A DNA stretch of 64,000 bases from Arabidopsis thaliana (Eukaryota > Streptophyta > Magnoliopsida > Brassicales > Brassicaceae), in contig NC_003075.7 of NCBI RefSeq assembly GCF_000001735.4, forward strand, positions 11,037,001 to 11,101,000. The letters are read 5' to 3'. This document shows positions 3,454 to 57,731 of the stretch, in pieces. Position numbers and translations under genes: made by a program. Under the pieces are notes generated by a model. It did no database searches, was not told where the DNA came from, and worked only from the letters and a program-made list of their open reading frames with translations. The stretch's first letter is position 1; the number at the start of each line of letters is the position of its first letter.

Positions 3454-3458
3454 CCTAT

Positions 3459-9702: not shown

Positions 9703-9705
9703 GAG

Positions 9706-10716
9706 CACGTTTGGTGCAAGGAGGGTTGCTCCTGAAGTGGGTCGTGCGGATGCTTCTAAACGACCGCGGGTAAGCGACCATAGATGGGGCTTTCGTTACG
9801 ACGATATGGCTGCTCCCTTTACTTCTAATTCTGTTGCTTGTGCTGAGCTTCTTCGTGAAATTGGTCGTGGCTCGGGTATTCCTTCGATGCCCTTAGACTT
9901 GAAGGAGGAGAAAGTTTTCGCCGGAGCGGCCAGGAAGTCGATCGAGGTATGCTCACCTTCTGGGTTTGATTCCAATTTTTTCTTTGAATTGCATTCGCTT
10001 GACACGCTCTTTGTCCAGGCGATCGCCGAATGGGATCGTTTGACTTATTTGTACGAGCGTTGTGTTCGGAGCCTTTCCGTAGAGGCTACTAACGCGAAAG
10101 ATGCCCATGAGGCTTTGGCCGTTGAAAAGGAAAAAGTAGCTCAGGCGCTGGCCGACCTGGCAAGGTCTCAAGACGACGCCAAGGAGATGAAGAGGAAATA
10201 TGACGAGTTAGCTGGTCGCGCTCTTTCGGAGATGAAGAGGCTTCGAGAACGTCGACTTGAATATGCTGAATTTGTCCGGAGATCGGCCCTTGATAAGATG
10301 GCGGAGCTCGTTCAGAAGCGATTGGATCGTATTAAAGCTCATATTGACGATACGAAGGCGGCAGAACCAAAGTTTCTTGAATTCAACCAAGTATCTGGGA
10401 ATATCAAGACTCTCGAGGCGTTGGTCGAAGGTGGCGAAGTGGAGATGAAGTCGGATGACAGATGTTAAGATTGGTAGCGGATGCAGAGGAATTGGAGGCC
10501 GAGGTGAAAGCTTTTGGTATCACCGATCTTATGGACGGCGACTTCGATGTTCGTACTTTATTTGCCGAGCTGAGTCCTGATAATCGTAATTCCGTTCCAC
10601 CGCCGACTGAAGGGGAAGATCTCGCGGATGGACGAGGTGAGTGCGAAGGCCAAGCTGGTGAAAGAATCGTTGGTCAAACTGAAGTTCGAGACGAGATCGC
10701 GGATGCTAGAGACTGA
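9706..10716 (+). mobile_element. Tat-type aORF (DUF1204) fragment, array unit 1
   Basis: Left-most copy of the retroelement-derived fragment built into the array. It matches 62044-63055 along its whole length, so it reaches 209 bp further left than the fragments of units 2-14, which begin at a junction scar. The encoded protein is a charged coiled coil (AHEALAVEKEKVAQALADLA, KRLRERRLEYAEF) ending in a DGDFDVRTLF block. That is the conserved DFD motif I associate with the Arabidopsis DUF1204 family, and such proteins occur as additional antisense ORFs of Tat-lineage gypsy elements. The frame is broken in this copy. Roughly 70 bp beyond 10716 may still be element DNA. Confidence 0.7.
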
Positions 10717-10953
10717 TATTCCAGGAGGCTAAGCCAAAGGGAAGAAGCGGAGCTCAGATGCCTAAAGAGATCCCAATATGGCAAAACAAAAAATATTCTA
10801 AAAACTGAATAATCAACGAATTTTATATTATGTGACCAAAAAATGAAAACAGAAACTATGTAACAATCATCAAATACAGTGTTTTCAGCATTTATTTTTT
10901 TCTAAATTTTCCAGCAACATACAAACATAACGTTACTACTAGACATAAAAATA

Positions 10954-11182
10954 CTCCCTCTGTTCCAAGTTATTTGATGGTTTGGATTTTTTTATTTGTT
11001 CCATAAGATTGATGTTTTGTAAAAATTAAATATGATTATTAATCTTGTTTGTTGCCAATAGTGAAAGGAGAGAGGTAATAGTAATATTATTAAACTATTA
11101 AAATAGTAATTAAAATTAAATAGAAAAGTTACTTTTTCTTAATTTATGTGCGAAACTTAAAACATCAAACTTACAGAGAGAG
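10954..11182. mobile_element. Stowaway-like MITE, unit 1
   Basis: A 229-bp noncoding DNA element. The left end is CTCCCTCTGTTCC and the right end, reverse complemented, is CTCTCTCTGTAAG; both continue into a TTTGATG(T/G)TTT block, giving terminal inverted repeats of about 25 bp with a small gap. TA flanks both sides (10952-10953 and 11183-11184), as in Tc1/mariner insertions. The CTCCCTC end is the hallmark of plant Stowaway MITEs. It lies about 445 bp upstream of the CRRSP start and was amplified with the unit. Confidence 0.85.
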
Positions 11183-11322
11183 TAATATATAACATGATAT
11201 GAGATGAAACTGTACGGTGTCGTTGCATAATTACATAAACTAGTTATAAACTCACACACTGCCTTCATTTCAGGTCGAGACAGAACTTATTGTGTGATTT
11301 AAATCAGACAAACCTTCGAACT

Positions 11323-11328
11323 TTGACT
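11323..11328 (+). promoter_or_regulatory. W-box-like TTGACT in the CRRSP promoter
   Basis: The core lies inside GAACTTTGACTTTTTCAT, which is kept word for word in the diverged CRRSP promoter at 57721-57738, and as TTGATT in the third promoter remnant near 60200. W-boxes bind WRKY factors and are common in DUF26 defence genes. Its function here is inferred from conservation. Confidence 0.5.
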
Positions 11329-11549
11329 TTTTCATCGCCTCCTGTCCCTTCGCCGCAAAATACTAGTCTAAACGCTCAACTCCTCTCTCCTGTCTTATAA
11401 ACTTTTTTTTTTAGAAAATGAGATGATCAATCGAATTTTGTTGTGTGTGACCTCAAACTGACAACTTCCAGTAATTGTAATATTACCAATTTTTTTTATC
11501 AAAAAGATGAACTTCACTTTAGAGCAATAGCAATCCCTCGAGTCTCCCC

Positions 11550-11558
11550 TATATAAAG
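11550..11558 (+). promoter_or_regulatory. TATA box of array CRRSP genes
   Basis: TATATAAAG stands 77 bp before the chosen ATG at 11627. An in-frame ATG at 11585 is only 27 bp after the box, at or before the expected transcription start, so the inner ATG is preferred. The same box recurs at 14809, 18068, 21327, 24586, 27845, 31104, 34363, 37622, 40881, 45727, 48986, 52245, 55504 and 63889. Confidence 0.75.
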
Positions 11559-11626
11559 ATTCCAACTCCTTAACGATTCATCTAATGAAAAAACACACAC
11601 ACCAAAAATATCAGATATCTCAAACA

Positions 11627-12639
11627 ATGTCTTCAGTTTTTGGATCTGTCCATATCTTGGCCATGATAGCCATACAACTCCTCCTTACACACAGTGTTTC
11701 ATCTCTGAACCTTACCAATGCGTATCTGCACCACAAATGCAGCAACACTCAAGGAAAATATAAGCAGGGGAGCGCGTTCGAGAAAAATCTCAACTTAGTC
11801 CTCAGTACCATCACCTCGATTGGAAATTTTCGTGACGGTTTCCGCTACACCGAAGAAGGTGAGGATCCCAATAACGTCTTTGTCATGTTCCAGTGTCGCG
11901 GCGACTCCTACTGGTCCAAGTGCCCCCCTTGCATTAGCACCGCCGTCTCTGGGGTAATTGTGACTTCAATATTATAAATTAGCAGTCATATAGTTACATG
12001 TAAAAATTACGATGAGCACACACGTCGGTTAATTTTTTCTGTCAAATCTTAAATATGTGGGCAATGATCCTGATACTTTATATAAATGATTGAATTGAGA
12101 CAAAACTGATAGACATTAAAGGCTAGTTAAAAAATACTGATTAAACAATGCAATATTGTTCTTGATATATATATGTACGTATATGTATGTGACAGCTTCG
12201 TAGGAGATGTCCAAGAAATAAGGGAGCAATAATATGGTATGACCAATGTCTTTTAAAGATATCTTCAGTTGCCTCCTTCAATAAGATAGATTATGAGAAC
12301 GATTTCTATTTGTCCAACCCAAACAACATGAGTGATCGGGGGTTGTTCAACAAGGAGACGTCGGCTCTCCTGGAGAAGCTGGCATATAAAGCCTCCGATA
12401 GAAACAACTTGGATGGTAAACAATTGGTGTTGTACGCAGCAGGGGAGAAGAGAATTGGGACAAAGAAGGTGTATGCAATGGTGCAGTGTACGAAAGACTT
12501 AATATTTACAAAGTGCTTTGAGTGTTTGGAAGGGATTTTGAGGAAGTTTCCACAGTGTTGTGACGGTAAACGAGGAGGGAGAGTTTTCGGTACGAGCTGT
12601 AACTTTAGGTATGAGTTATATCCTTTTCTTAGAAACTAA
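11627..12639 (+). CDS. CRRSP: Cysteine-rich repeat secretory protein (DUF26), array copy 1
   Basis: Two-exon host gene: exon 1 11627-11953, 242-bp GT-AG intron in phase 0, exon 2 12196-12639; 256 aa, the usual CRRSP length. Residues 1-26 form a signal peptide with a leucine-rich core ending SVSS. DUF26 domain 1 has C38, then C90-X8-C99-X2-C102, C114 and C127. Domain 2 has C207-X8-C216-X2-C219, the CC pair 230-231 and C244, and ends RYELYPF. There is no membrane segment or kinase, so the product should be secreted to the apoplast. Related DUF26 proteins (ginkbilobin-2) bind mannose. The equivalent Arg/Glu pair is present in domain 2 (R238, E249) but absent from domain 1, by hand alignment. An upstream in-frame ATG at 11585 would add 14 residues; the TATA spacing argues against it. 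AATAAA lies at 12745-12750. I believe this is one of the identical Arabidopsis chromosome 4 CRRSPs (about numbers 41-53) but cannot assign the number. Confidence 0.96.
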
Positions 12640-13153
12640 CAGCAACAACAGTACAATGAGAGCTCCATATTAAATGAAAGGGTTCTAGAGATAAACAGTC
12701 TTATAATATACACTGTGTTGCATTTTAGTACGTGAACTTGAGCGAATAAATGTACTTTCCTCTTTGTGATTTTTGTTTTTTTTTTGTGAACTTGAGTTAT
12801 TAAGAGGAAATCTTCAAGTAAAGAATTTATCTAATAGTATATACATCCCACATAGAATACCAAATAGCTCAGCTCATACAAACTCTCTCATAATGAGAGA
12901 AAAAAATCCTGAAATAAGGGTAAGAAAAACTCTTATGCCTCAAGGTTTTAGTAAATCTCATAATTTTGGCCGAACCACAAAAAGAGACGTGCGAAACAAA
13001 ATAGTAGAAAATTGATTTCCCGAATCGACAAACATGGACTAAACTATATGTATGATACATAACTGGTCGTACTTACAATGATGATACTTGGTTTCACGAA
13101 GACGAGGGAGCCTGGAGATGAATGATGGTGATAAGGCCATGTGTCATCACCAA
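12640..13153. other. 3' flank of the CRRSP gene up to the unit junction
   Basis: Holds the likely polyadenylation signal AATAAA (12745-12750), short T and A runs and no credible gene. Small open frames on both strands here recur unchanged in every unit but have no protein-like composition or known homology. The unit ends in the CATGTGTCATCACC scar. The same stretch follows every array gene. Confidence 0.7.
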
Positions 13154-13975
13154 AAGGAGGGTTGCTCCTGAAGTTTTCGCCGGAGCGGCCAGGAAGTCGA
13201 TCGAGGTATGCTCACCTTCTGGGTTTGATTCCAATTTTTTCTTTGAATTGCATTCGCTTGACACGCTCTTTGTCCAGGCGATCGCCGAATGGGATCGTTT
13301 GACTTATTTGTACGAGCGTTGTGTTCGGAGCCTTTCCGTAGAGGCTACTAACGCGAAAGATGCCCATGAGGCTTTGGCCGTTGAAAAGGAAAAAGTAGCT
13401 CAGGCGCTGGCCGACCTGGCAAGGTCTCAAGACGACGCCAAGGAGATGAAGAGGAAATATGACGAGTTAGCTGGTCGCGCTCTTTCGGAGATGAAGAGGC
13501 TTCGAGAACGTCGACTTGAATATGCTGAATTTGTCCGGAGATCGGCCCTTGATAAGATGGCGGAGCTCGTTCAGAAGCGATTGGATCGTATTAAAGCTCA
13601 TATTGACGATACGAAGGCGGCAGAACCAAAGTTTCTTGAATTCAACCAAGTATCTGGGAATATCAAGACTCTCGAGGCGTTGGTCGAAGGTGGCGAAGTG
13701 GAGATGAAGTCGGATGACAGATGTTAAGATTGGTAGCGGATGCAGAGGAATTGGAGGCCGAGGTGAAAGCTTTTGGTATCACCGATCTTATGGACGGCGA
13801 CTTCGATGTTCGTACTTTATTTGCCGAGCTGAGTCCTGATAATCGTAATTCCGTTCCACCGCCGACTGAAGGGGAAGATCTCGCGGATGGACGAGGTGAG
13901 TGCGAAGGCCAAGCTGGTGAAAGAATCGTTGGTCAAACTGAAGTTCGAGACGAGATCGCGGATGCTAGAGACTGA
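13154..13975 (+). mobile_element. Tat-type aORF (DUF1204) fragment, array unit 2
   Basis: First copy with the constant left scar: AAGGAGGGTTGCTCCTGAAG is joined directly to TTTTCGCC, omitting 181 bp that unit 1 and the 61.7-kb copy still have between these blocks. Otherwise it matches unit 1, including the DFD block near its end. The frame is broken. Confidence 0.7.
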
Positions 13976-14212
13976 TATTCCAGGAGGCTAAGCCAAAGGG
14001 AAGAAGCGGAGCTCAGATGCCTAAAGAGATCCCAATATGGCAAAACAAAAAATATTCTAAAAACTGAATAATCAACGAATTTTATATTATGTGACCAAAA
14101 AATGAAAACAGAAACTATGTAACAATCATCAAATACAGTGTTTTCAGCATTTATTTTTTTCTAAATTTTCCAGCAACATACAAACATAACGTTACTACTA
14201 GACATAAAAATA

Positions 14213-14441
14213 CTCCCTCTGTTCCAAGTTATTTGATGGTTTGGATTTTTTTATTTGTTCCATAAGATTGATGTTTTGTAAAAATTAAATATGATTATTA
14301 ATCTTGTTTGTTGCCAATAGTGAAAGGAGAGAGGTAATAGTAATATTATTAAACTATTAAAATAGTAATTAAAATTAAATAGAAAAGTTACTTTTTCTTA
14401 ATTTATGTGCGAAACTTAAAACATCAAACTTACAGAGAGAG
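14213..14441. mobile_element. Stowaway-like MITE, unit 2
   Basis: Copy of the 229-bp element at the same place in the unit, 445 bp before the CRRSP terminal repeat-to-gene interval ends, flanked by TA. Confidence 0.85.
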
Positions 14442-14885
14442 TAATATATAACATGATATGAGATGAAACTGTACGGTGTCGTTGCATAATTACATAAACT
14501 AGTTATAAACTCACACACTGCCTTCATTTCAGGTCGAGACAGAACTTATTGTGTGATTTAAATCAGACAAACCTTCGAACTTTGACTTTTTCATCGCCTC
14601 CTGTCCCTTCGCCGCAAAATACTAGTCTAAACGCTCAACTCCTCTCTCCTGTCTTATAAACTTTTTTTTTTAGAAAATGAGATGATCAATCGAATTTTGT
14701 TGTGTGTGACCTCAAACTGACAACTTCCAGTAATTGTAATATTACCAATTTTTTTTATCAAAAAGATGAACTTCACTTTAGAGCAATAGCAATCCCTCGA
14801 GTCTCCCCTATATAAAGATTCCAACTCCTTAACGATTCATCTAATGAAAAAACACACACACCAAAAATATCAGATATCTCAAACA

Positions 14886-15898
14886 ATGTCTTCAGTTTTT
14901 GGATCTGTCCATATCTTGGCCATGATAGCCATACAACTCCTCCTTACACACAGTGTTTCATCTCTGAACCTTACCAATGCGTATCTGCACCACAAATGCA
15001 GCAACACTCAAGGAAAATATAAGCAGGGGAGCGCGTTCGAGAAAAATCTCAACTTAGTCCTCAGTACCATCACCTCGATTGGAAATTTTCGTGACGGTTT
15101 CCGCTACACCGAAGAAGGTGAGGATCCCAATAACGTCTTTGTCATGTTCCAGTGTCGCGGCGACTCCTACTGGTCCAAGTGCCCCCCTTGCATTAGCACC
15201 GCCGTCTCTGGGGTAATTGTGACTTCAATATTATAAATTAGCAGTCATATAGTTACATGTAAAAATTACGATGAGCACACACGTCGGTTAATTTTTTCTG
15301 TCAAATCTTAAATATGTGGGCAATGATCCTGATACTTTATATAAATGATTGAATTGAGACAAAACTGATAGACATTAAAGGCTAGTTAAAAAATACTGAT
15401 TAAACAATGCAATATTGTTCTTGATATATATATGTACGTATATGTATGTGACAGCTTCGTAGGAGATGTCCAAGAAATAAGGGAGCAATAATATGGTATG
15501 ACCAATGTCTTTTAAAGATATCTTCAGTTGCCTCCTTCAATAAGATAGATTATGAGAACGATTTCTATTTGTCCAACCCAAACAACATGAGTGATCGGGG
15601 GTTGTTCAACAAGGAGACGTCGGCTCTCCTGGAGAAGCTGGCATATAAAGCCTCCGATAGAAACAACTTGGATGGTAAACAATTGGTGTTGTACGCAGCA
15701 GGGGAGAAGAGAATTGGGACAAAGAAGGTGTATGCAATGGTGCAGTGTACGAAAGACTTAATATTTACAAAGTGCTTTGAGTGTTTGGAAGGGATTTTGA
15801 GGAAGTTTCCACAGTGTTGTGACGGTAAACGAGGAGGGAGAGTTTTCGGTACGAGCTGTAACTTTAGGTATGAGTTATATCCTTTTCTTAGAAACTAA
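14886..15898 (+). CDS. CRRSP: CRRSP (DUF26), array copy 2
   Basis: Exons 14886-15212 and 15455-15898; translates to the same 256 aa as copy 1. TATA box at 14809. Confidence 0.96.
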
Positions 15899-16412
15899 CA
15901 GCAACAACAGTACAATGAGAGCTCCATATTAAATGAAAGGGTTCTAGAGATAAACAGTCTTATAATATACACTGTGTTGCATTTTAGTACGTGAACTTGA
16001 GCGAATAAATGTACTTTCCTCTTTGTGATTTTTGTTTTTTTTTTGTGAACTTGAGTTATTAAGAGGAAATCTTCAAGTAAAGAATTTATCTAATAGTATA
16101 TACATCCCACATAGAATACCAAATAGCTCAGCTCATACAAACTCTCTCATAATGAGAGAAAAAAATCCTGAAATAAGGGTAAGAAAAACTCTTATGCCTC
16201 AAGGTTTTAGTAAATCTCATAATTTTGGCCGAACCACAAAAAGAGACGTGCGAAACAAAATAGTAGAAAATTGATTTCCCGAATCGACAAACATGGACTA
16301 AACTATATGTATGATACATAACTGGTCGTACTTACAATGATGATACTTGGTTTCACGAAGACGAGGGAGCCTGGAGATGAATGATGGTGATAAGGCCATG
16401 TGTCATCACCAA

Positions 16413-17234
16413 AAGGAGGGTTGCTCCTGAAGTTTTCGCCGGAGCGGCCAGGAAGTCGATCGAGGTATGCTCACCTTCTGGGTTTGATTCCAATTTTTTC
16501 TTTGAATTGCATTCGCTTGACACGCTCTTTGTCCAGGCGATCGCCGAATGGGATCGTTTGACTTATTTGTACGAGCGTTGTGTTCGGAGCCTTTCCGTAG
16601 AGGCTACTAACGCGAAAGATGCCCATGAGGCTTTGGCCGTTGAAAAGGAAAAAGTAGCTCAGGCGCTGGCCGACCTGGCAAGGTCTCAAGACGACGCCAA
16701 GGAGATGAAGAGGAAATATGACGAGTTAGCTGGTCGCGCTCTTTCGGAGATGAAGAGGCTTCGAGAACGTCGACTTGAATATGCTGAATTTGTCCGGAGA
16801 TCGGCCCTTGATAAGATGGCGGAGCTCGTTCAGAAGCGATTGGATCGTATTAAAGCTCATATTGACGATACGAAGGCGGCAGAACCAAAGTTTCTTGAAT
16901 TCAACCAAGTATCTGGGAATATCAAGACTCTCGAGGCGTTGGTCGAAGGTGGCGAAGTGGAGATGAAGTCGGATGACAGATGTTAAGATTGGTAGCGGAT
17001 GCAGAGGAATTGGAGGCCGAGGTGAAAGCTTTTGGTATCACCGATCTTATGGACGGCGACTTCGATGTTCGTACTTTATTTGCCGAGCTGAGTCCTGATA
17101 ATCGTAATTCCGTTCCACCGCCGACTGAAGGGGAAGATCTCGCGGATGGACGAGGTGAGTGCGAAGGCCAAGCTGGTGAAAGAATCGTTGGTCAAACTGA
17201 AGTTCGAGACGAGATCGCGGATGCTAGAGACTGA
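16413..17234 (+). mobile_element. Tat-type aORF (DUF1204) fragment, array unit 3
   Basis: Matches the unit 2 fragment, with the same left scar; broken. Confidence 0.7.
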
Positions 17235-17471
17235 TATTCCAGGAGGCTAAGCCAAAGGGAAGAAGCGGAGCTCAGATGCCTAAAGAGATCCCAATATGGC
17301 AAAACAAAAAATATTCTAAAAACTGAATAATCAACGAATTTTATATTATGTGACCAAAAAATGAAAACAGAAACTATGTAACAATCATCAAATACAGTGT
17401 TTTCAGCATTTATTTTTTTCTAAATTTTCCAGCAACATACAAACATAACGTTACTACTAGACATAAAAATA

Positions 17472-42484: not shown

Positions 42485-43306
42485 AAGGAGGGTTGCTCCT
42501 GAAGTTTTCGCCGGAGCGGCCAGGAAGTCGATCGAGGTATGCTCACCTTCTGGGTTTGATTCCAATTTTTTCTTTGAATTGCATTCGCTTGACACGCTCT
42601 TTGTCCAGGCGATCGCCGAATGGGATCGTTTGACTTATTTGTACGAGCGTTGTGTTCGGAGCCTTTCCGTAGAGGCTACTAACGCGAAAGATGCCCATGA
42701 GGCTTTGGCCGTTGAAAAGGAAAAAGTAGCTCAGGCGCTGGCCGACCTGGCAAGGTCTCAAGACGACGCCAAGGAGATGAAGAGGAAATATGACGAGTTA
42801 GCTGGTCGCGCTCTTTCGGAGATGAAGAGGCTTCGAGAACGTCGACTTGAATATGCTGAATTTGTCCGGAGATCGGCCCTTGATAAGATGGCGGAGCTCG
42901 TTCAGAAGCGATTGGATCGTATTAAAGCTCATATTGACGATACGAAGGCGGCAGAACCAAAGTTTCTTGAATTCAACCAAGTATCTGGGAATATCAAGAC
43001 TCTCGAGGCGTTGGTCGAAGGTGGCGAAGTGGAGATGAAGTCGGATGACAGATGTTAAGATTGGTAGCGGATGCAGAGGAATTGGAGGCCGAGGTGAAAG
43101 CTTTTGGTATCACCGATCTTATGGACGGCGACTTCGATGTTCGTACTTTATTTGCCGAGCTGAGTCCTGATAATCGTAATTCCGTTCCACCGCCGACTGA
43201 AGGGGAAGATCTCGCGGATGGACGAGGTGAGTGCGAAGGCCAAGCTGGTGAAAGAATCGTTGGTCAAACTGAAGTTCGAGACGAGATCGCGGATGCTAGA
43301 GACTGA
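42485..43306 (+). mobile_element. Tat-type aORF (DUF1204) fragment, array unit 11
   Basis: Matches the unit 2 fragment, with the same left scar; broken. It ends 183 bp before the Mutator-like insertion. Confidence 0.7.
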
Positions 43307-43489
43307 TATTCCAGGAGGCTAAGCCAAAGGGAAGAAGCGGAGCTCAGATGCCTAAAGAGATCCCAATATGGCAAAACAAAAAATATTCTAAAAACTGAAT
43401 AATCAACGAATTTTATATTATGTGACCAAAAAATGAAAACAGAAACTATGTAACAATCATCAAATACAGTGTTTTCAGCATTTATTTTT

Positions 43490-45067
43490 GGGAAATTTAC
43501 TAGAGTAACCCATATTTTATACATAATGACCCAAAAGGAATGCTAAAAATATGAGTTATTTGAGTAATAATTATACCTAAATTATCCTTGTTTTCCTTTG
43601 CAGAGAAAAACAATATTACAGAAATGCCATTACTATTTAATTCCAGCAAGGCAATAAAACCACATTTATTTACGAAAATGCCATCGTCGTTTTTGGTAAA
43701 TCTGTGGCTCTTGTTGCGACGGATTTGTTATCGATCACAGATTTGTTGGTCAACCACAGATTTTTTACAACAGACTTGTTTTGTACCACAGACTTTACTT
43801 TGTTATGTTACGCCAGATTTTTTTTTTTTCGCAGATTTTTTAACCGTGACTGATTTGTTTCATATAGTCTCCACAGATTTTATTTAAATTTCAAAAGTAA
43901 GAATGTTGAAACCAAATCTGTCACTGATTTGTTTTCCGGACCACAGATTTTTCTTTATGGTGGCAACAGATTTTCTATTTGCACCCAAAAATCTGTTGTG
44001 TTATAACAGATTTGTTAACCTCGAAAAATGTTATATAGGCATGACAGAGTTGTTTTGTGTAATCACAGATTTAATTAACTTGTTAACAAATCTGGTGTTT
44101 TACAACAGATTTTTGTTAAAAAATAAAATTACTACACAGTCACATAGTGATAACAGATTTGTTTTTAGTGATGACAGTTTTGTTTTTCAGTGTCAAAGCA
44201 TAACAGATTTACTCATGTCAATGTTATGGCCGATTTGTTTATGACTAGAATAACCTTTTTAGTAATAACAGACTTTTTATGGCAGATTTATTTTTAAAAT
44301 TTCGAAATTTTTTGTTATATGAGATTTATTAGCTAGCCCTCAATTAAATTATTTCCGGTCTGATTGTATGTTAAATCCGGTTTGACTGAATTTTTTTTTT
44401 TTTTGAAAAAGAAATAACGTTACGACAGACTTTTATTAATGTCGGCAGATTTTTACATAATATTGTCATATTTGAATTTTAATGAATTTTATTAGTCATG
44501 ATAAATTCTCCAAGGGTTTTCATAACCGTTTTTTTTCTTCTTCTATTCCTACCATCAAATCAATTATTTGTGAATTGATACATGTCAAAATATTATTGGT
44601 AAGCTAAAACAAGTCAATTTATCAAAATTAAATTGTTTTTCTTTAGTATTTTTAAAATCAAAAACGAAATATGTGAAGAAGATTCTTCTTTATCTAAATT
44701 TTGTTCAAAATTATTCTTTTAAAAAAAGTTTGTTCTCACGTTAACTGGATTTTCGTTTTTGTTTTAATTATATAATATAGGTTTTGGTTTTCTTTTTTAT
44801 CCACGATTTCTTTTTTGATTTTATAATTCTGTTGAAAAATAATTTGGTTTTGCTGATTTGTCAAAATTTTATTGGTGGAGTGACTTGTGTTTTAAAATAT
44901 AAAAGATTTGTTTTATTTTTTATTTTTTGTTTTAATTTGATTACAATTAATCATTAAGGTTATTTCGTCTTTTTACCAAAGATATGGGTTACTACAGTTT
45001 TTGAAACCAAACGTGTGTCATTTAAGTTATTTATGTTAAGAGTTGAGTCAATCTAAGCAAATCTTAC
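43490..45067. mobile_element. Mutator-like (VANDAL-type?) non-autonomous insertion, 1,578 bp
   Basis: Compared with the other 13 units, unit 11 has exactly 1,587 extra bases. TTTATTTTT stands on both sides (43481-43489 and 45068-45076), a 9-bp target duplication as made by Mutator-like elements. The left end reads GGGAAATTTACTAGAGTAAC. The right end, reverse complemented, reads GTAAGATTTGCTTAGATTGA, only loosely similar, so long terminal inverted repeats are lacking. This resembles the VANDAL group of Arabidopsis MULEs. The inside is AT-rich and has no transposase. Its left half carries about 25 copies of a CAGATTT-type motif. It interrupts the stretch upstream of CRRSP copy 11, ending 737 bp before that gene's ATG, and is absent from all other units. 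A poly-T target leaves a base or two of doubt about the ends. Confidence 0.85.
43697..44458 (+). repeat. Cluster of CAGATTT(GTT) motifs inside the insertion
   Basis: Around 25 occurrences of CAGATTT or close variants (CAGACTT, TGATTTGTT) are spaced mostly 15-60 bp apart, commonly preceded by AA or AC and followed by GTT or TTT. A few, such as AAATCTG, are on the other strand. Intervening DNA is not repeated, so this is a motif array and not a simple satellite. Such clusters of short motifs are known in VANDAL elements as binding sites of anti-silencing VANC proteins; that this is the role here is inference. Confidence 0.65.
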
Positions 45068-45130
45068 TTTATTTTTTTCTAAATTTTCCAGCAACATACA
45101 AACATAACGTTACTACTAGACATAAAAATA

Positions 45131-45359
45131 CTCCCTCTGTTCCAAGTTATTTGATGGTTTGGATTTTTTTATTTGTTCCATAAGATTGATGTTTTGTAAA
45201 AATTAAATATGATTATTAATCTTGTTTGTTGCCAATAGTGAAAGGAGAGAGGTAATAGTAATATTATTAAACTATTAAAATAGTAATTAAAATTAAATAG
45301 AAAAGTTACTTTTTCTTAATTTATGTGCGAAACTTAAAACATCAAACTTACAGAGAGAG
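45131..45359. mobile_element. Stowaway-like MITE, unit 11
   Basis: 229-bp copy, 63 bp to the right of the Mutator-like insertion, so this unit's upstream region carries two DNA transposons. Confidence 0.85.
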
Positions 45360-45803
45360 TAATATATAACATGATATGAGATGAAACTGTACGGTGTCGT
45401 TGCATAATTACATAAACTAGTTATAAACTCACACACTGCCTTCATTTCAGGTCGAGACAGAACTTATTGTGTGATTTAAATCAGACAAACCTTCGAACTT
45501 TGACTTTTTCATCGCCTCCTGTCCCTTCGCCGCAAAATACTAGTCTAAACGCTCAACTCCTCTCTCCTGTCTTATAAACTTTTTTTTTTAGAAAATGAGA
45601 TGATCAATCGAATTTTGTTGTGTGTGACCTCAAACTGACAACTTCCAGTAATTGTAATATTACCAATTTTTTTTATCAAAAAGATGAACTTCACTTTAGA
45701 GCAATAGCAATCCCTCGAGTCTCCCCTATATAAAGATTCCAACTCCTTAACGATTCATCTAATGAAAAAACACACACACCAAAAATATCAGATATCTCAA
45801 ACA

Positions 45804-46816
45804 ATGTCTTCAGTTTTTGGATCTGTCCATATCTTGGCCATGATAGCCATACAACTCCTCCTTACACACAGTGTTTCATCTCTGAACCTTACCAATGCGT
45901 ATCTGCACCACAAATGCAGCAACACTCAAGGAAAATATAAGCAGGGGAGCGCGTTCGAGAAAAATCTCAACTTAGTCCTCAGTACCATCACCTCGATTGG
46001 AAATTTTCGTGACGGTTTCCGCTACACCGAAGAAGGTGAGGATCCCAATAACGTCTTTGTCATGTTCCAGTGTCGCGGCGACTCCTACTGGTCCAAGTGC
46101 CCCCCTTGCATTAGCACCGCCGTCTCTGGGGTAATTGTGACTTCAATATTATAAATTAGCAGTCATATAGTTACATGTAAAAATTACGATGAGCACACAC
46201 GTCGGTTAATTTTTTCTGTCAAATCTTAAATATGTGGGCAATGATCCTGATACTTTATATAAATGATTGAATTGAGACAAAACTGATAGACATTAAAGGC
46301 TAGTTAAAAAATACTGATTAAACAATGCAATATTGTTCTTGATATATATATGTACGTATATGTATGTGACAGCTTCGTAGGAGATGTCCAAGAAATAAGG
46401 GAGCAATAATATGGTATGACCAATGTCTTTTAAAGATATCTTCAGTTGCCTCCTTCAATAAGATAGATTATGAGAACGATTTCTATTTGTCCAACCCAAA
46501 CAACATGAGTGATCGGGGGTTGTTCAACAAGGAGACGTCGGCTCTCCTGGAGAAGCTGGCATATAAAGCCTCCGATAGAAACAACTTGGATGGTAAACAA
46601 TTGGTGTTGTACGCAGCAGGGGAGAAGAGAATTGGGACAAAGAAGGTGTATGCAATGGTGCAGTGTACGAAAGACTTAATATTTACAAAGTGCTTTGAGT
46701 GTTTGGAAGGGATTTTGAGGAAGTTTCCACAGTGTTGTGACGGTAAACGAGGAGGGAGAGTTTTCGGTACGAGCTGTAACTTTAGGTATGAGTTATATCC
46801 TTTTCTTAGAAACTAA
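45804..46816 (+). CDS. CRRSP: CRRSP (DUF26), array copy 11
   Basis: Exons 45804-46130 and 46373-46816; 256 aa, same translation as copy 1. TATA box at 45727. The proximal promoter, including the W-box and MITE, is intact; the Mutator-like insertion separates it from the aORF fragment further upstream. Confidence 0.96.
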
Positions 46817-47330
46817 CAGCAACAACAGTACAATGAGAGCTCCATATTAAATGAAAGGGTTCTAGAGATAAACAGTCTTATAATATACACTGTGTTGCAT
46901 TTTAGTACGTGAACTTGAGCGAATAAATGTACTTTCCTCTTTGTGATTTTTGTTTTTTTTTTGTGAACTTGAGTTATTAAGAGGAAATCTTCAAGTAAAG
47001 AATTTATCTAATAGTATATACATCCCACATAGAATACCAAATAGCTCAGCTCATACAAACTCTCTCATAATGAGAGAAAAAAATCCTGAAATAAGGGTAA
47101 GAAAAACTCTTATGCCTCAAGGTTTTAGTAAATCTCATAATTTTGGCCGAACCACAAAAAGAGACGTGCGAAACAAAATAGTAGAAAATTGATTTCCCGA
47201 ATCGACAAACATGGACTAAACTATATGTATGATACATAACTGGTCGTACTTACAATGATGATACTTGGTTTCACGAAGACGAGGGAGCCTGGAGATGAAT
47301 GATGGTGATAAGGCCATGTGTCATCACCAA

Positions 47331-48152
47331 AAGGAGGGTTGCTCCTGAAGTTTTCGCCGGAGCGGCCAGGAAGTCGATCGAGGTATGCTCACCTTCTGGG
47401 TTTGATTCCAATTTTTTCTTTGAATTGCATTCGCTTGACACGCTCTTTGTCCAGGCGATCGCCGAATGGGATCGTTTGACTTATTTGTACGAGCGTTGTG
47501 TTCGGAGCCTTTCCGTAGAGGCTACTAACGCGAAAGATGCCCATGAGGCTTTGGCCGTTGAAAAGGAAAAAGTAGCTCAGGCGCTGGCCGACCTGGCAAG
47601 GTCTCAAGACGACGCCAAGGAGATGAAGAGGAAATATGACGAGTTAGCTGGTCGCGCTCTTTCGGAGATGAAGAGGCTTCGAGAACGTCGACTTGAATAT
47701 GCTGAATTTGTCCGGAGATCGGCCCTTGATAAGATGGCGGAGCTCGTTCAGAAGCGATTGGATCGTATTAAAGCTCATATTGACGATACGAAGGCGGCAG
47801 AACCAAAGTTTCTTGAATTCAACCAAGTATCTGGGAATATCAAGACTCTCGAGGCGTTGGTCGAAGGTGGCGAAGTGGAGATGAAGTCGGATGACAGATG
47901 TTAAGATTGGTAGCGGATGCAGAGGAATTGGAGGCCGAGGTGAAAGCTTTTGGTATCACCGATCTTATGGACGGCGACTTCGATGTTCGTACTTTATTTG
48001 CCGAGCTGAGTCCTGATAATCGTAATTCCGTTCCACCGCCGACTGAAGGGGAAGATCTCGCGGATGGACGAGGTGAGTGCGAAGGCCAAGCTGGTGAAAG
48101 AATCGTTGGTCAAACTGAAGTTCGAGACGAGATCGCGGATGCTAGAGACTGA
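47331..48152 (+). mobile_element. Tat-type aORF (DUF1204) fragment, array unit 12
   Basis: Matches the unit 2 fragment, with the same left scar; broken. Confidence 0.7.
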
Positions 48153-48389
48153 TATTCCAGGAGGCTAAGCCAAAGGGAAGAAGCGGAGCTCAGATGCCTA
48201 AAGAGATCCCAATATGGCAAAACAAAAAATATTCTAAAAACTGAATAATCAACGAATTTTATATTATGTGACCAAAAAATGAAAACAGAAACTATGTAAC
48301 AATCATCAAATACAGTGTTTTCAGCATTTATTTTTTTCTAAATTTTCCAGCAACATACAAACATAACGTTACTACTAGACATAAAAATA

Positions 48390-48618
48390 CTCCCTCTGTT
48401 CCAAGTTATTTGATGGTTTGGATTTTTTTATTTGTTCCATAAGATTGATGTTTTGTAAAAATTAAATATGATTATTAATCTTGTTTGTTGCCAATAGTGA
48501 AAGGAGAGAGGTAATAGTAATATTATTAAACTATTAAAATAGTAATTAAAATTAAATAGAAAAGTTACTTTTTCTTAATTTATGTGCGAAACTTAAAACA
48601 TCAAACTTACAGAGAGAG
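48390..48618. mobile_element. Stowaway-like MITE, unit 12
   Basis: 229-bp copy, same TA flanks and position within the unit. Confidence 0.85.
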
Positions 48619-49062
48619 TAATATATAACATGATATGAGATGAAACTGTACGGTGTCGTTGCATAATTACATAAACTAGTTATAAACTCACACACTGCCT
48701 TCATTTCAGGTCGAGACAGAACTTATTGTGTGATTTAAATCAGACAAACCTTCGAACTTTGACTTTTTCATCGCCTCCTGTCCCTTCGCCGCAAAATACT
48801 AGTCTAAACGCTCAACTCCTCTCTCCTGTCTTATAAACTTTTTTTTTTAGAAAATGAGATGATCAATCGAATTTTGTTGTGTGTGACCTCAAACTGACAA
48901 CTTCCAGTAATTGTAATATTACCAATTTTTTTTATCAAAAAGATGAACTTCACTTTAGAGCAATAGCAATCCCTCGAGTCTCCCCTATATAAAGATTCCA
49001 ACTCCTTAACGATTCATCTAATGAAAAAACACACACACCAAAAATATCAGATATCTCAAACA

Positions 49063-50075
49063 ATGTCTTCAGTTTTTGGATCTGTCCATATCTTGGCCAT
49101 GATAGCCATACAACTCCTCCTTACACACAGTGTTTCATCTCTGAACCTTACCAATGCGTATCTGCACCACAAATGCAGCAACACTCAAGGAAAATATAAG
49201 CAGGGGAGCGCGTTCGAGAAAAATCTCAACTTAGTCCTCAGTACCATCACCTCGATTGGAAATTTTCGTGACGGTTTCCGCTACACCGAAGAAGGTGAGG
49301 ATCCCAATAACGTCTTTGTCATGTTCCAGTGTCGCGGCGACTCCTACTGGTCCAAGTGCCCCCCTTGCATTAGCACCGCCGTCTCTGGGGTAATTGTGAC
49401 TTCAATATTATAAATTAGCAGTCATATAGTTACATGTAAAAATTACGATGAGCACACACGTCGGTTAATTTTTTCTGTCAAATCTTAAATATGTGGGCAA
49501 TGATCCTGATACTTTATATAAATGATTGAATTGAGACAAAACTGATAGACATTAAAGGCTAGTTAAAAAATACTGATTAAACAATGCAATATTGTTCTTG
49601 ATATATATATGTACGTATATGTATGTGACAGCTTCGTAGGAGATGTCCAAGAAATAAGGGAGCAATAATATGGTATGACCAATGTCTTTTAAAGATATCT
49701 TCAGTTGCCTCCTTCAATAAGATAGATTATGAGAACGATTTCTATTTGTCCAACCCAAACAACATGAGTGATCGGGGGTTGTTCAACAAGGAGACGTCGG
49801 CTCTCCTGGAGAAGCTGGCATATAAAGCCTCCGATAGAAACAACTTGGATGGTAAACAATTGGTGTTGTACGCAGCAGGGGAGAAGAGAATTGGGACAAA
49901 GAAGGTGTATGCAATGGTGCAGTGTACGAAAGACTTAATATTTACAAAGTGCTTTGAGTGTTTGGAAGGGATTTTGAGGAAGTTTCCACAGTGTTGTGAC
50001 GGTAAACGAGGAGGGAGAGTTTTCGGTACGAGCTGTAACTTTAGGTATGAGTTATATCCTTTTCTTAGAAACTAA
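49063..50075 (+). CDS. CRRSP: CRRSP (DUF26), array copy 12
   Basis: Exons 49063-49389 and 49632-50075; 256 aa, same translation as copy 1. TATA box at 48986. Confidence 0.96.
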
Positions 50076-50589
50076 CAGCAACAACAGTACAATGAGAGCT
50101 CCATATTAAATGAAAGGGTTCTAGAGATAAACAGTCTTATAATATACACTGTGTTGCATTTTAGTACGTGAACTTGAGCGAATAAATGTACTTTCCTCTT
50201 TGTGATTTTTGTTTTTTTTTTGTGAACTTGAGTTATTAAGAGGAAATCTTCAAGTAAAGAATTTATCTAATAGTATATACATCCCACATAGAATACCAAA
50301 TAGCTCAGCTCATACAAACTCTCTCATAATGAGAGAAAAAAATCCTGAAATAAGGGTAAGAAAAACTCTTATGCCTCAAGGTTTTAGTAAATCTCATAAT
50401 TTTGGCCGAACCACAAAAAGAGACGTGCGAAACAAAATAGTAGAAAATTGATTTCCCGAATCGACAAACATGGACTAAACTATATGTATGATACATAACT
50501 GGTCGTACTTACAATGATGATACTTGGTTTCACGAAGACGAGGGAGCCTGGAGATGAATGATGGTGATAAGGCCATGTGTCATCACCAA

Positions 50590-51411
50590 AAGGAGGGTTG
50601 CTCCTGAAGTTTTCGCCGGAGCGGCCAGGAAGTCGATCGAGGTATGCTCACCTTCTGGGTTTGATTCCAATTTTTTCTTTGAATTGCATTCGCTTGACAC
50701 GCTCTTTGTCCAGGCGATCGCCGAATGGGATCGTTTGACTTATTTGTACGAGCGTTGTGTTCGGAGCCTTTCCGTAGAGGCTACTAACGCGAAAGATGCC
50801 CATGAGGCTTTGGCCGTTGAAAAGGAAAAAGTAGCTCAGGCGCTGGCCGACCTGGCAAGGTCTCAAGACGACGCCAAGGAGATGAAGAGGAAATATGACG
50901 AGTTAGCTGGTCGCGCTCTTTCGGAGATGAAGAGGCTTCGAGAACGTCGACTTGAATATGCTGAATTTGTCCGGAGATCGGCCCTTGATAAGATGGCGGA
51001 GCTCGTTCAGAAGCGATTGGATCGTATTAAAGCTCATATTGACGATACGAAGGCGGCAGAACCAAAGTTTCTTGAATTCAACCAAGTATCTGGGAATATC
51101 AAGACTCTCGAGGCGTTGGTCGAAGGTGGCGAAGTGGAGATGAAGTCGGATGACAGATGTTAAGATTGGTAGCGGATGCAGAGGAATTGGAGGCCGAGGT
51201 GAAAGCTTTTGGTATCACCGATCTTATGGACGGCGACTTCGATGTTCGTACTTTATTTGCCGAGCTGAGTCCTGATAATCGTAATTCCGTTCCACCGCCG
51301 ACTGAAGGGGAAGATCTCGCGGATGGACGAGGTGAGTGCGAAGGCCAAGCTGGTGAAAGAATCGTTGGTCAAACTGAAGTTCGAGACGAGATCGCGGATG
51401 CTAGAGACTGA
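50590..51411 (+). mobile_element. Tat-type aORF (DUF1204) fragment, array unit 13
   Basis: Matches the unit 2 fragment, with the same left scar; broken. Confidence 0.7.
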
Positions 51412-51648
51412 TATTCCAGGAGGCTAAGCCAAAGGGAAGAAGCGGAGCTCAGATGCCTAAAGAGATCCCAATATGGCAAAACAAAAAATATTCTAAAAAC
51501 TGAATAATCAACGAATTTTATATTATGTGACCAAAAAATGAAAACAGAAACTATGTAACAATCATCAAATACAGTGTTTTCAGCATTTATTTTTTTCTAA
51601 ATTTTCCAGCAACATACAAACATAACGTTACTACTAGACATAAAAATA

Positions 51649-51877
51649 CTCCCTCTGTTCCAAGTTATTTGATGGTTTGGATTTTTTTATTTGTTCCATA
51701 AGATTGATGTTTTGTAAAAATTAAATATGATTATTAATCTTGTTTGTTGCCAATAGTGAAAGGAGAGAGGTAATAGTAATATTATTAAACTATTAAAATA
51801 GTAATTAAAATTAAATAGAAAAGTTACTTTTTCTTAATTTATGTGCGAAACTTAAAACATCAAACTTACAGAGAGAG
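51649..51877. mobile_element. Stowaway-like MITE, unit 13
   Basis: 229-bp copy, same TA flanks and position within the unit. Confidence 0.85.
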
Positions 51878-52321
51878 TAATATATAACATGATATGAGAT
51901 GAAACTGTACGGTGTCGTTGCATAATTACATAAACTAGTTATAAACTCACACACTGCCTTCATTTCAGGTCGAGACAGAACTTATTGTGTGATTTAAATC
52001 AGACAAACCTTCGAACTTTGACTTTTTCATCGCCTCCTGTCCCTTCGCCGCAAAATACTAGTCTAAACGCTCAACTCCTCTCTCCTGTCTTATAAACTTT
52101 TTTTTTTAGAAAATGAGATGATCAATCGAATTTTGTTGTGTGTGACCTCAAACTGACAACTTCCAGTAATTGTAATATTACCAATTTTTTTTATCAAAAA
52201 GATGAACTTCACTTTAGAGCAATAGCAATCCCTCGAGTCTCCCCTATATAAAGATTCCAACTCCTTAACGATTCATCTAATGAAAAAACACACACACCAA
52301 AAATATCAGATATCTCAAACA

Positions 52322-53334
52322 ATGTCTTCAGTTTTTGGATCTGTCCATATCTTGGCCATGATAGCCATACAACTCCTCCTTACACACAGTGTTTCATCTC
52401 TGAACCTTACCAATGCGTATCTGCACCACAAATGCAGCAACACTCAAGGAAAATATAAGCAGGGGAGCGCGTTCGAGAAAAATCTCAACTTAGTCCTCAG
52501 TACCATCACCTCGATTGGAAATTTTCGTGACGGTTTCCGCTACACCGAAGAAGGTGAGGATCCCAATAACGTCTTTGTCATGTTCCAGTGTCGCGGCGAC
52601 TCCTACTGGTCCAAGTGCCCCCCTTGCATTAGCACCGCCGTCTCTGGGGTAATTGTGACTTCAATATTATAAATTAGCAGTCATATAGTTACATGTAAAA
52701 ATTACGATGAGCACACACGTCGGTTAATTTTTTCTGTCAAATCTTAAATATGTGGGCAATGATCCTGATACTTTATATAAATGATTGAATTGAGACAAAA
52801 CTGATAGACATTAAAGGCTAGTTAAAAAATACTGATTAAACAATGCAATATTGTTCTTGATATATATATGTACGTATATGTATGTGACAGCTTCGTAGGA
52901 GATGTCCAAGAAATAAGGGAGCAATAATATGGTATGACCAATGTCTTTTAAAGATATCTTCAGTTGCCTCCTTCAATAAGATAGATTATGAGAACGATTT
53001 CTATTTGTCCAACCCAAACAACATGAGTGATCGGGGGTTGTTCAACAAGGAGACGTCGGCTCTCCTGGAGAAGCTGGCATATAAAGCCTCCGATAGAAAC
53101 AACTTGGATGGTAAACAATTGGTGTTGTACGCAGCAGGGGAGAAGAGAATTGGGACAAAGAAGGTGTATGCAATGGTGCAGTGTACGAAAGACTTAATAT
53201 TTACAAAGTGCTTTGAGTGTTTGGAAGGGATTTTGAGGAAGTTTCCACAGTGTTGTGACGGTAAACGAGGAGGGAGAGTTTTCGGTACGAGCTGTAACTT
53301 TAGGTATGAGTTATATCCTTTTCTTAGAAACTAA
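52322..53334 (+). CDS. CRRSP: CRRSP (DUF26), array copy 13
   Basis: Exons 52322-52648 and 52891-53334; 256 aa, same translation as copy 1. TATA box at 52245. Confidence 0.96.
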
Positions 53335-53848
53335 CAGCAACAACAGTACAATGAGAGCTCCATATTAAATGAAAGGGTTCTAGAGATAAACAGTCTTATA
53401 ATATACACTGTGTTGCATTTTAGTACGTGAACTTGAGCGAATAAATGTACTTTCCTCTTTGTGATTTTTGTTTTTTTTTTGTGAACTTGAGTTATTAAGA
53501 GGAAATCTTCAAGTAAAGAATTTATCTAATAGTATATACATCCCACATAGAATACCAAATAGCTCAGCTCATACAAACTCTCTCATAATGAGAGAAAAAA
53601 ATCCTGAAATAAGGGTAAGAAAAACTCTTATGCCTCAAGGTTTTAGTAAATCTCATAATTTTGGCCGAACCACAAAAAGAGACGTGCGAAACAAAATAGT
53701 AGAAAATTGATTTCCCGAATCGACAAACATGGACTAAACTATATGTATGATACATAACTGGTCGTACTTACAATGATGATACTTGGTTTCACGAAGACGA
53801 GGGAGCCTGGAGATGAATGATGGTGATAAGGCCATGTGTCATCACCAA

Positions 53849-54671
53849 AAGGAGGGTTGCTCCTGAAGTTTTCGCCGGAGCGGCCAGGAAGTCGATCGAG
53901 GTATGCTCACCTTCTGGGTTTGATTCCAATTTTTTCTTTGAATTGCATTCGCTTGACACGCTCTTTGTCCAGGCGATCGCCGAATGGGATCGTTTGACTT
54001 ATTTGTACGAGCGTTGTGTTCGGAGCCTTTCCGTAGAGGCTACTAACGCGAAAGATGCCCATGAGGCTTTGGCCGTTGAAAAGGAAAAAGTAGCTCAGGC
54101 GCTGGCCGACCTGGCAAGGTCTCAAGACGACGCCAAGGAGATGAAGAGGAAATATGACGAGTTAGCTGGTCGCGCTCTTTCGGAGATGAAGAGGCTTCGA
54201 GAACGTCGACTTGAATATGCTGAATTTGTCCGGAGATCGGCCCTTGATAAGATGGCGGAGCTCGTTCAGAAGCGATTGGATCGTATTAAAGCTCATATTG
54301 ACGATACGAAGGCGGCAGAACCAAAGTTTCTTGAATTCAACCAAGTATCTGGGAATATCAAGACTCTCGAGGCGTTGGTCGAAGGTGGCGAAGTGGAGAT
54401 GAAGTCGGATGACACGATGTTAAGATTGGTAGCGGATACAGAGGAATTGGAGGCCGAGGTGAAAGCTTTTGGTATCACCGATCTTATGGACGGCGACTTC
54501 GATGTTCGTACTTTATTTGCCGAGCTGAGTCCTGATAATCGTAATTCCGTTCCACCGCCGACTAAAGGGGAAGATCTCGCGGATGGACGAGGTGAGTGCG
54601 AAGGCCAAGCTGGTGAAAGAATCGTTGGTCAAACTGAAGTTCGAGACGAGATCGCGGATGCTAGAGACTGA
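53849..54671 (+). mobile_element. Tat-type aORF (DUF1204) fragment, array unit 14 (edge copy)
   Basis: The right-edge copy differs from the others at a few bases. Its frame reads openly from the scar through the DFD block to the usual end, unlike units 1-13. It is still a truncated fragment because the left part of the aORF is missing. Confidence 0.7.
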
Positions 54672-54908
54672 TATTCCAGGAGGCTAAGCCAAAGGGAAGA
54701 AGCGGAGCTCAGATGCCTAAAGAGATCCCAATATGGCAAAACAAAAAATATTCTAAAAACTGAATAATCAACGAATTTTATATTATGTGACCAAAAAATG
54801 AAAACAGAAACTATGTAACAATCATCAAATACAGTGTTTTCAGCATTTATTTTTTTCTAAATTTTCCAGCAACATACAAACATAACGTTACTACTAGACA
54901 TAAAAATA

Positions 54909-55137
54909 CTCCCTCTGTTCCAAGTTATTTGATGGTTTGGATTTTTTTATTTGTTCCATAAGATTGATGTTTTGTAAAAATTAAATATGATTATTAATCT
55001 TGTTTGTTGCCAATAGTGAAAGGAGAGAGGTAATAGTAATATTATTAAACTATTAAAATAGTAATTAAAATTAAATAGAAAAGTTACTTTTTCTTAATTT
55101 ATGTGCGAAACTTAAAACATCAAACTTACAGAGAGAG
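54909..55137. mobile_element. Stowaway-like MITE, unit 14
   Basis: 229-bp copy in the edge unit, TA flanks kept. Confidence 0.85.
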
Positions 55138-55580
55138 TAATATATAACATGATATGAGATGAAACTGTACGGTGTCGTTGCATAATTACATAAACTAGTT
55201 ATAAACTCACACACTGCCTTCATTTCAGGTCGAGACAGAACTTATTGTGTGATTTAAATCAGACAAACCTTCGAACTTTGACTTTTTCATCGCCTCCTGT
55301 CCCTTCGCCGCAAAATACTAGTCTAAACGCTCAACTCCTCTCTCCTGTCTTATAAACTTTTTTTTTTAGAAAATGAGATGATCAATCGAATTTTGTTGTG
55401 TGTGACCTCAAACTGACAACTTCCAGTAATTGTAATATTACCAATTTTTTTATAAAAAAGATGAACTTCACTTTAGAGCAATAGCAATCCCTCGAGTCTC
55501 CCCTATATAAAGATTCCAACTCCTTAACGATTCATCTAATGAAAAAACACACACACCAAAAATATCAGATATCTCAAACA

Positions 55581-56621
55581 ATGTCTTCAGTTTTTGGATC
55601 TGTCCATATCTTGGCCATGATAGCCATACAACTCCTCCTTACACACAGTGTTTCATCTCTGAACCTTACCAATGCGTATCTGCACCACAAATGCAGCAAC
55701 ACTCAAGGAAAATATAAGCAGGGGAGCGCGTTCGAGAAAAATCTCAACTTAGTCCTCAGTACCATCACCTCGATTGGAAATTTTCGTGACGGTTTCCGCT
55801 ACACCGAAGAAGGTGAGGATCCCAATAACGTCTTTGTCATGTTCCAGTGTCGCGGCGACTCCTACTGGTCCAAGTGCCCCCCTTGCATTAGCACCGCCGT
55901 CTCTGGGGTAATTGTGACTTCAATATTATAAATTAGCAGTCATATAGTTACATGTAAAAATTACGATGAGCACACACGTCGGTTAATTTTTTTTGTCAAA
56001 TCTTAAATATGTGGGCAATGATCCTGATACTTTATATAAATGATTGAATTGAGACAAAACTGATAGACATTAAAGGCTAGTTAAAAACTACTGATTAAAC
56101 AATGCAATATTGTTCTTGATATATATGTACGTATATGTATGTGACAGCTTCGTAGGAGATGTCCAAGAAATAAGGGAGCAATAATATGGTATGACCAATG
56201 TCTTTTAAAGATATCTTCAGTTGCCTCCTTCAATAAGATAGATTATGAGAACGATTTCTATTTGTCCAACCCAAACAACATGAGTGATCGGGGGTTGTTC
56301 AACAAGGAGACGTCGGCTCTCCTGGAGAAGCTGGCATATAAAGCCTCCGATAGAAACAACTTGGATGGTAAACAATTGGTGTTGTACGCAGCAGGGGAGA
56401 AGAGAATTGGGACAAAGAAGGTGTATGCAATGGTGCAGTGTACGAAAGACTTAATATTTACAAAGTGCTTTGAGTGTTTGGAAGGGATTTTGAGGAAGTT
56501 TCCACAGTGTTGTGACGGTAAACGAGGAGGGAGAGTTTTCGGTACGAGCTGTAACTTTAGGTATGAGTTATATCCTTTTCTTAGAAACTACAGCAACAGT
56601 ACAATGAGAGCTCCATATTAA
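55581..56621 (+). CDS. CRRSP: CRRSP (DUF26), array copy 14, with extended C-terminus
   Basis: Exons 55581-55907 and 56148-56621, with a 240-bp intron, two bases shorter than in the other copies. Residues 1-256 are the same as copy 1. In place of the usual TAA after the final Asn codon the frame reads on as [10 protein letters not shown], giving 266 aa. The change is a small loss of bases in the CAACAACAG tract just after the normal end. Other differences lie upstream (near 55447) and in the intron. The tail carries an N-S-T glycosylation sequon, so the product may differ slightly from the rest. TATA box at 55504. Confidence 0.94.
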
Positions 56622-57725
56622 ATGAAAGGGTTCTAGAGATAAACAGTCTTATAATATACACTGTGTTGCATTTTAGTACGTGAACTTGAGCGAATAAATG
56701 TACTTTCCTCTTTGTGATTTTTGTTTTTTTTTTGTGAACTTGAGTTATTAAGAGGAAATCTTCAAGTAAAGAATTTATCTAATAGTATATACATCCCACA
56801 TAGAATACCAAATAGCTCAGCTCATACAAACTCTCTCATAATGAGAGAAAAAAATCCTGAAATAAGGGTAAGAAAAACTCTTATGCCTCAAGGTTTTAGT
56901 AAATCTCATAATTTTGGCCGAACCACAAAAAGAGACGTGCGAAACAAAATAGTAGAAAATTGATTTCCCGAATCGACAAACATGGACTAAACTATATGTA
57001 TGATACATAACTGGTCGTACTTACAATGATGATACTTGGTTTCACGAAGACGAGGGAGCCTGGAGATGAATGATGGTGATAAGGCCATGTGGCATCATGT
57101 CTTGTGCCGGAGTCGATGTATGTAGAAGTCGGAAGAAATAGTAAATTCACATTTATCAGCTTCATGATAACTTCATTTGCCAACAATTTTTAGTATATGC
57201 TAACATTAATACGCTTGGATGTATATATTCATCATTTGTTTACAAAAAAATAAAAATCCACAAGACATAAATTAGTGTTTGATAGAAACCAAATAGTAAA
57301 TAATTACAATATTCTTAGTCACTTAGAAATCTATGTAATATGCCTAAATTAATCTTTTACTCTCTTCTCGTAGCATTATACTTTTTATTTTATTTTAGAC
57401 TCTGAGATGAAAGACAATGCTATTACAGTGTCGAAATCACATTATCTTGAATAGTCTAATTCTTTTGAATGCAACCATGCTCTACGTGAAGTAGAGTTAC
57501 AATATCTTTGGATTAAAAAATATGAGCTAATTGCAATGGAAATGAGATAACTACAATTGAAAATTAACCTTCTTTCACAGGGACACTACGCATGAAAGTT
57601 AAAACATCTTAGCCCAAAATCCCCAGAGCCAAAATTCTATTGCTCCTGTACAAAACCAGCGGTGCACTACAAGTTTGGTATGATTCTATTTTCTCAGAGT
57701 TTTAACTTAGTAAAGTATTTGAACT

Positions 57726-57731
57726 TTGACT
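57726..57731 (+). promoter_or_regulatory. W-box-like TTGACT, diverged CRRSP promoter
   Basis: Part of an 18-bp block identical to the array promoters, although most surrounding promoter sequence has diverged. This points to a constrained site. Confidence 0.5.

Follow-up and report, generated by a model that had tools for sequence, protein, structure and literature searches.

Tandem genes for secreted DUF26 proteins (CRRSPs) have been described on two chromosomes of Arabidopsis thaliana, in accounts that we cite from excerpts of their text. On chromosome 4, At4g20530-At4g20670 make up a tandem repeat of 14 genes (PMC2642726), and 13 identical members of the array, plus three that are nearly so, have been published (PMC3568094). 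On chromosome 3, a CRRSP cluster lies in a copy-number variation of about 50 kb with 21 genes, within which AT3G21960 is multiallelic (PMC5318451). Abundant proteins of the pollen coat include CRRSP41 (AT4G20670) and CRRSP18 (AT3G21920), both of which can barely be detected in ms1 and ms188 (PMC7410184). In this study, we analyzed the chromosome 4 array in a window of 64,000 bp (chromosome 4, contig 4, 11,037,001-11,101,000) and compared it with the whole genome in one assembly (119.66 Mb, seven contigs). By gene order, it is the same locus as the published At4g20530-At4g20670 repeat (PMC2642726; PMC3568094), and from gene order together with PMC2642726 it follows that unit 1 is At4g20530. The array itself is already known, and homogenised tandem arrays are a known kind. 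The excerpted accounts of the repeat are silent on a chromosome 3 origin, on its content of Tat retroelement and miniature inverted-repeat transposable element (MITE) DNA, on an insert in unit 11 and on units 15 and 16. Its anatomy and origin were not found in the literature searched, which covered few of the subscription journals. The explanation that we favor, at a probability of roughly 0.55, is that a copy derived from chromosome 3 was joined to Tat DNA to form the unit, that exchange built the array, and that the product belongs to the pollen coat.

The chromosome 3 cluster resembles this locus in carrying relatives of the array gene (gene A) and of its right-hand neighbor (gene B) in the same order, in its tandem DUF26 genes and in a copy number that varies between accessions (PMC5318451). 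Unlike the array, it showed no letter-identical repeat in our genome matches to the unit and its genes. We regard the assembly as that of Col-0, since the two AT3G21960 probes (chromosome 3, 7,737,420-7,737,467 and 7,737,872-7,737,929; PMC5318451) fall inside CRRSP exon matches at 7,737,192-7,737,497 and 7,737,690-7,738,145. CRRSP41 and CRRSP18 come close in another way: they are CRRSPs numbered in the chromosome 4 and chromosome 3 clusters (PMC7410184), and genes A and B have a promoter block in common. These two are known as pollen-coat proteins, whereas the array product is known here from its genes alone.

Anatomy of the array and its unit

Unit 1 begins at position 9912 of the window and the period is 3,259 bp. 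When the window was compared with itself at this lag, zero mismatches were found over 9912-40230; well outside the array, background identity was about 0.23-0.28 when taken kilobase by kilobase. NdeI has no site within the array and cuts on either side of it at about 8607 and 57738, which would give a fragment of about 49 kb. Units 1-10 (9912-42501, forward strand, as are all units) and units 12 and 13 (47348-53865) equal unit 1 at 3259/3259 bases. Unit 11 (42502-47347) is also identical once two additions are discounted: an insert of 1,578 bp at 43490-45067 and a single copy of the 9-bp target duplication, TTTATTTTT, that goes with it. The exact period claimed by the initial annotation thus holds with one interruption. 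Its count of fourteen units was right as far as it went, since units 1-14 are present, but a further unit 15 and a partial unit 16 lie beyond 62 kb. Unit 14 (53866-57097) differs from unit 1 by 6 mismatches in BLAST or 7 in a global alignment, plus 8 gap bases, and is without the final 21 bases of the unit. Unit 15 (62250-65509, of which 62250-64000 is in the window) has 3 differences, and the 821 bp of unit 16 (65510-66330) fall outside the window.

Gene A of unit 1 (11627-12639, forward strand) has two exons, at 11627-11953 and 12196-12639, and encodes 256 amino acids; splice sites were picked by inspection, and the genome is without annotation here. Its product contains two PF01657 (DUF26) stretches (E 6.5e-38), both with the C-X8-C-X2-C motif, and its N-terminus is hydrophobic by eye. 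At an E-value cutoff of 1, no Pfam family other than PF01657 gave a match, and the only related solved structures at a cutoff of 0.001 were 6gre and 6grf. That 13 genes encode one identical protein was borne out by the translations of units 1-13 (13/13, 256 amino acids). The gene of unit 14 encodes 266 amino acids, 10 residues more, and that of unit 15 is stopped after 56 amino acids by one of the unit's three differences, so that the 15 genes comprise 13 with the identical protein, one extended and one stopped. The array would thus put out one predicted secreted double-DUF26 protein from 13 identical genes, together with one slightly longer form.

From left to right, each unit consists of a fragment of a Tat antisense open reading frame (aORF), chromosome 3-type DNA, a MITE, a promoter, the two-exon CRRSP gene, and its 3' flank with the unit junction. 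The left Tat piece (9705-10720, forward strand) is present in every unit as 9912-10720; its first part, 9705-9911, was found again in full only at 62043-62249, with 1 difference in 207. The initial annotation had recognized an aORF fragment of a Tat-type retroelement here, and the fragment matches the Pfam profile PF06721/DUF1204 at E 3.6e-76, its frame being broken in units 1-13. An element on chromosome 1 carries gag and pol on the forward strand and DUF1204 on the reverse strand, between pol and the 3' repeat. The pol of this element comprises reverse transcriptase, two kinds of RNase H domain and integrase, and the flanking repeats are 94-99% identical. We take the dual RNase H to be a mark of the Tat lineage and label the chromosome 1 element accordingly. 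The antisense placement is seen in this relative; the array itself holds the identified aORF part alone. Another locus (C5), taken for the same comparison, gave no retroelement domain in the three of its four long frames that were scanned.

The presence of a MITE in the unit was likewise upheld. The segment at 10951-11172 in unit 1 is repeated in every unit and is absent from the chromosome 3 relative. It was found at no fewer than 11 further genomic sites, counted from the 40 of 81 candidates that were scored. From its terminal CTCCCTC motif, we presume that it is Stowaway-like. A promoter block around AACTTTGACTTTTTCAT (11310-11363, forward strand) is common to gene A, gene B and several genes of the chromosome 3 cluster. 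Support for the complete promoter claimed for each unit consists of this block and the conservation with chromosome 3.

The insert of unit 11 belongs to a dispersed family with 37 genome matches including itself, some of which are pieces of one copy; the best other match reaches 98%. By the length of its target duplication, it is presumably MULE-like (Mutator-like). Because it is present in one unit only, the insert appears to be younger than the array, and a mobile element would have entered unit 11 once the array already existed. To the left of the array, the flank contains a 228-bp tandem duplication at 3000-3456 (about 99-100% identical), and some 6 kb of it (2906-9239) recur to the right of the array, mostly inverted, at about 97%. 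The 452-bp repeats at 3514 and 9238 were considered as long terminal repeats (LTRs) and dropped, as their ends are unlike LTR ends.

A probable chromosome 3 source and a new junction

Elsewhere in the genome, the best relative lies on chromosome 3. The segment 54678-60270 (forward strand) is colinear with chromosome 3 7,748,739-7,754,085, with 87% identity over 54678-54899 and 96% over 55138-60270. It takes in genes A and B and, beyond them, a third gene's truncated promoter. On chromosome 3, the two left-hand neighbors of gene A are 74-75% identical to the unit. In the same cluster, the CRRSP genes at 7720722-7721708 and 7723319-7724305 have equal or near-equal match scores and are perhaps a recent duplicate pair. 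In unit 1, the left edge of the chromosome 3-type DNA meets the aORF at about 10720. While the homology between the two chromosomes is observed directly, direction and route of copying are our inference: a two-gene piece of the chromosome 3 CRRSP cluster would have been copied to chromosome 4, either into a Tat retroelement or beside one.

Divergence along this segment is uneven. With the 87% block at 54678-54899 excluded from the count, we found 104 substitutions in 3,241 bp (55138-58378, 3.2%) and 4 in 1,892 bp (58379-60270, 0.2%). In 2000 uniform random placements of the substitutions, the score observed for a change point at 58378 was reached by none. The low-divergence tract (58379-60270, forward strand; chromosome 3 about 7752195-7754085) reaches into gene B, whose two exons lie in frames at 57976-59307 (forward strand). 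Such a drop at about 58.4 kb (3.2% to 0.2%) is expected after interchromosomal exchange, and the tract probably reflects recent ectopic conversion between chromosomes 3 and 4 over gene B.

The junction between units is a novel sequence. At 13150-13170 (forward strand), the 3' flank of gene A is followed by 17 bp of Tat aORF and then by Tat from 9912. In the complete units other than 14, the flank stops at CATCA and is followed by a few bases and then by Tat as at 9718-9734; between the 17-bp piece and 9912, 177 bp of Tat are missing, and the break shows a 4-bp homology (AAGT). Unit 14 retains the chromosome 3-like 3' flank, which is continuous into gene B. This structure is read directly, and the mechanism of joining is our interpretation of it. 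The unit seems to have arisen by a tandem duplication, joined at short homologies, together with a deletion; the gene A flank would thereby have been joined to the Tat aORF to give a 3,259-bp unit with Tat at both ends. The letter-identical units 1-13 support the earlier proposal that CRRSP gene, aORF fragment and MITE were amplified in tandem as one unit. Because every unit holds the same Tat piece, exchange could both expand and homogenise the array; unequal crossing-over and gene conversion between units may have multiplied the repeat and kept its copies identical. Unit 15 starts with the full Tat (62043-62249) and ends in an array-type junction (65509/65510), from which it would appear that homologous exchange brought a unit to the right-hand Tat piece or acted in the opposite direction. 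Units 15 and 16, which show the novel junction beside that Tat piece, may stem from one such ectopic exchange.

Right of the chromosome 3-type segment, mobile-element DNA extends over 60271-63061 (forward strand) with an open aORF (DUF1204) of 475 amino acids at 61628-63055. Position 60271 is taken as an element end because 19 of the 68 other genome matches to the DNA adjoining 60270/60271 start within 3 bases of the same point. Another copy on chromosome 4 (L006) has the same element end and aORF in the same order. The right-hand DNA includes short tandem repeats of 26 and 78 bp (60649-60971) and is partly copied on chromosome 1 at 8778784, 8801312, 8815690 and 8830068. The last three of these copies are spaced by exactly 14,378 bp and perhaps mark another large uniform tandem array.

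Age, copy number and product

With the mutation rate taken as 7e-9 per site per generation, zero differences in 13 units of 3,259 bp imply that a star-like expansion began no more than about 10,000 generations ago (upper 95% bound). For a single pair of units, the bound is about 66,000 generations, and the left part of the segment common to chromosomes 3 and 4 gives about 2.3 million generations; these figures presume that the assembled sequence is true for each copy. With the same proviso, the lack of differences sustains the earlier view of very recent amplification or homogenisation.

The array product is most likely a tapetum-made component of the pollen coat, in an amount that would scale with copy number, as judged from its neighbors. 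We favor pollen coat over defence on indirect clues: the pollen-coat CRRSPs described above, a change of -7.70 for At4g20530 in a microarray of agp6 agp11 pollen tubes (PMC3546934), the binding of neither mannose nor CBM1 by AT4G20670 (PMC9521807), and a pollen-coat proteome with seven A. thaliana CRRSPs, whose names are outside the excerpt of that report (PMC9856046).

Several observations weigh against the history and function proposed here. Gene B is probably AT4G20670/CRRSP41, with gene order as the basis. The 0.2% tract could instead have arisen when the right end was copied recently in an independent event. The identity of the element ending at 60271 is unsettled, as the order in L006 stands against a weak 83-bp match to 60485-60564 in the chromosome 1 Tat copy, located between pol and aORF and outside the repeat. 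A consensus sequence written into a collapsed repeat can likewise produce zero variation among units. Expression, proteomic and accession data on the array genes amount to one microarray value, and DUF26 proteins have antifungal roles elsewhere (PMC6368629).

The strongest alternative is neutral growth, in which chance exchanges between Tat pieces enlarged the array and its copy number has no effect on the plant. Identity covers intron, MITE and Tat DNA as well as exons, and for this reason there is no sign of protein selection within the array. Against the chromosome 3 gene, the proportions of nonsynonymous and synonymous changes were pN 0.013 (8/607.5) and pS 0.031 (5/160.5), too few for selection to be inferred, and the gene of unit 15 is already stopped. 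On the other side, the gene frame is open in all 14 of units 1-14, although a young array would show this in any case. We consider such neutral growth quite possible, if short of probable.

It is unlikely, in our judgment, that the unit count or the perfect identity of the units is a product of assembling a clone from short reads. Thirteen units without any difference are what such an artefact would leave, and the 33.6-kb stretch 9912-43489 holds no internal anchor. Nevertheless, anchors exist in the unit 11 insert and the variant units 14-16. Moreover, the excerpted comparison of a Col-0 assembly from Oxford Nanopore (ONT) and HiFi reads with TAIR10.1 reports no non-centromeric misassembly by QUAST, at a size threshold of 500 kb and with the array unnamed in the excerpt, and gene lift-over gave one misassembly, on chromosome 5 (PMC9510872). 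The reduction of the CRRSP family by normalisation (PMC3568094) and the CRRSP repeat signal in a ChIP-chip negative control (PMC2642726) fit a repeated family and measure no copy number.

Finally, we doubt the initial suggestion of a probably defence-related lectin-like protein, in which identical genes would supply more of a mannose-binding protein with antifungal action to the apoplast: PF01657 bears the name Stress-antifung, and both mannose binding and activity against fungi are known for Gnk2 and two maize CRRSPs (PMC6368629), but the neighbor AT4G20670 showed no binding to mannose or CBM1 (PMC9521807), PDLP5 is without mannose binding (PMC6368629), and the few expression clues concern pollen.

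The initial annotation predicted that copy number would vary between accessions. Gene-ID and topic searches of the literature found no paper on copy-number variation of the array, and the main text of a 69-accession pan-genome paper contains no word starting AT4G20 (PMC11096106). The reports retrieved for AT4G20510 (PMC6591975) and AT4G20520 (PMC8239388) concern, as excerpted, neighboring gene numbers only, and an excerpt equating At4g20550 with ERF1 (PMC5344996) was set aside as an apparently erroneous number.

Short-read and array data on these CRRSP genes are not assignable to a single locus. More speculatively, the Tat fragment might be the handle by which an active gene accordion recombines, through which a pollen-coat CRRSP unit expands, stays identical and spreads to a further Tat piece, the dose of the pollen-coat protein being set by a copy number that differs between accessions; we hold this to be an outside chance. 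If the copy number is real and variable, the array would offer a natural and clean series of doses of one secreted plant protein, and unequal exchange could be measured there directly.

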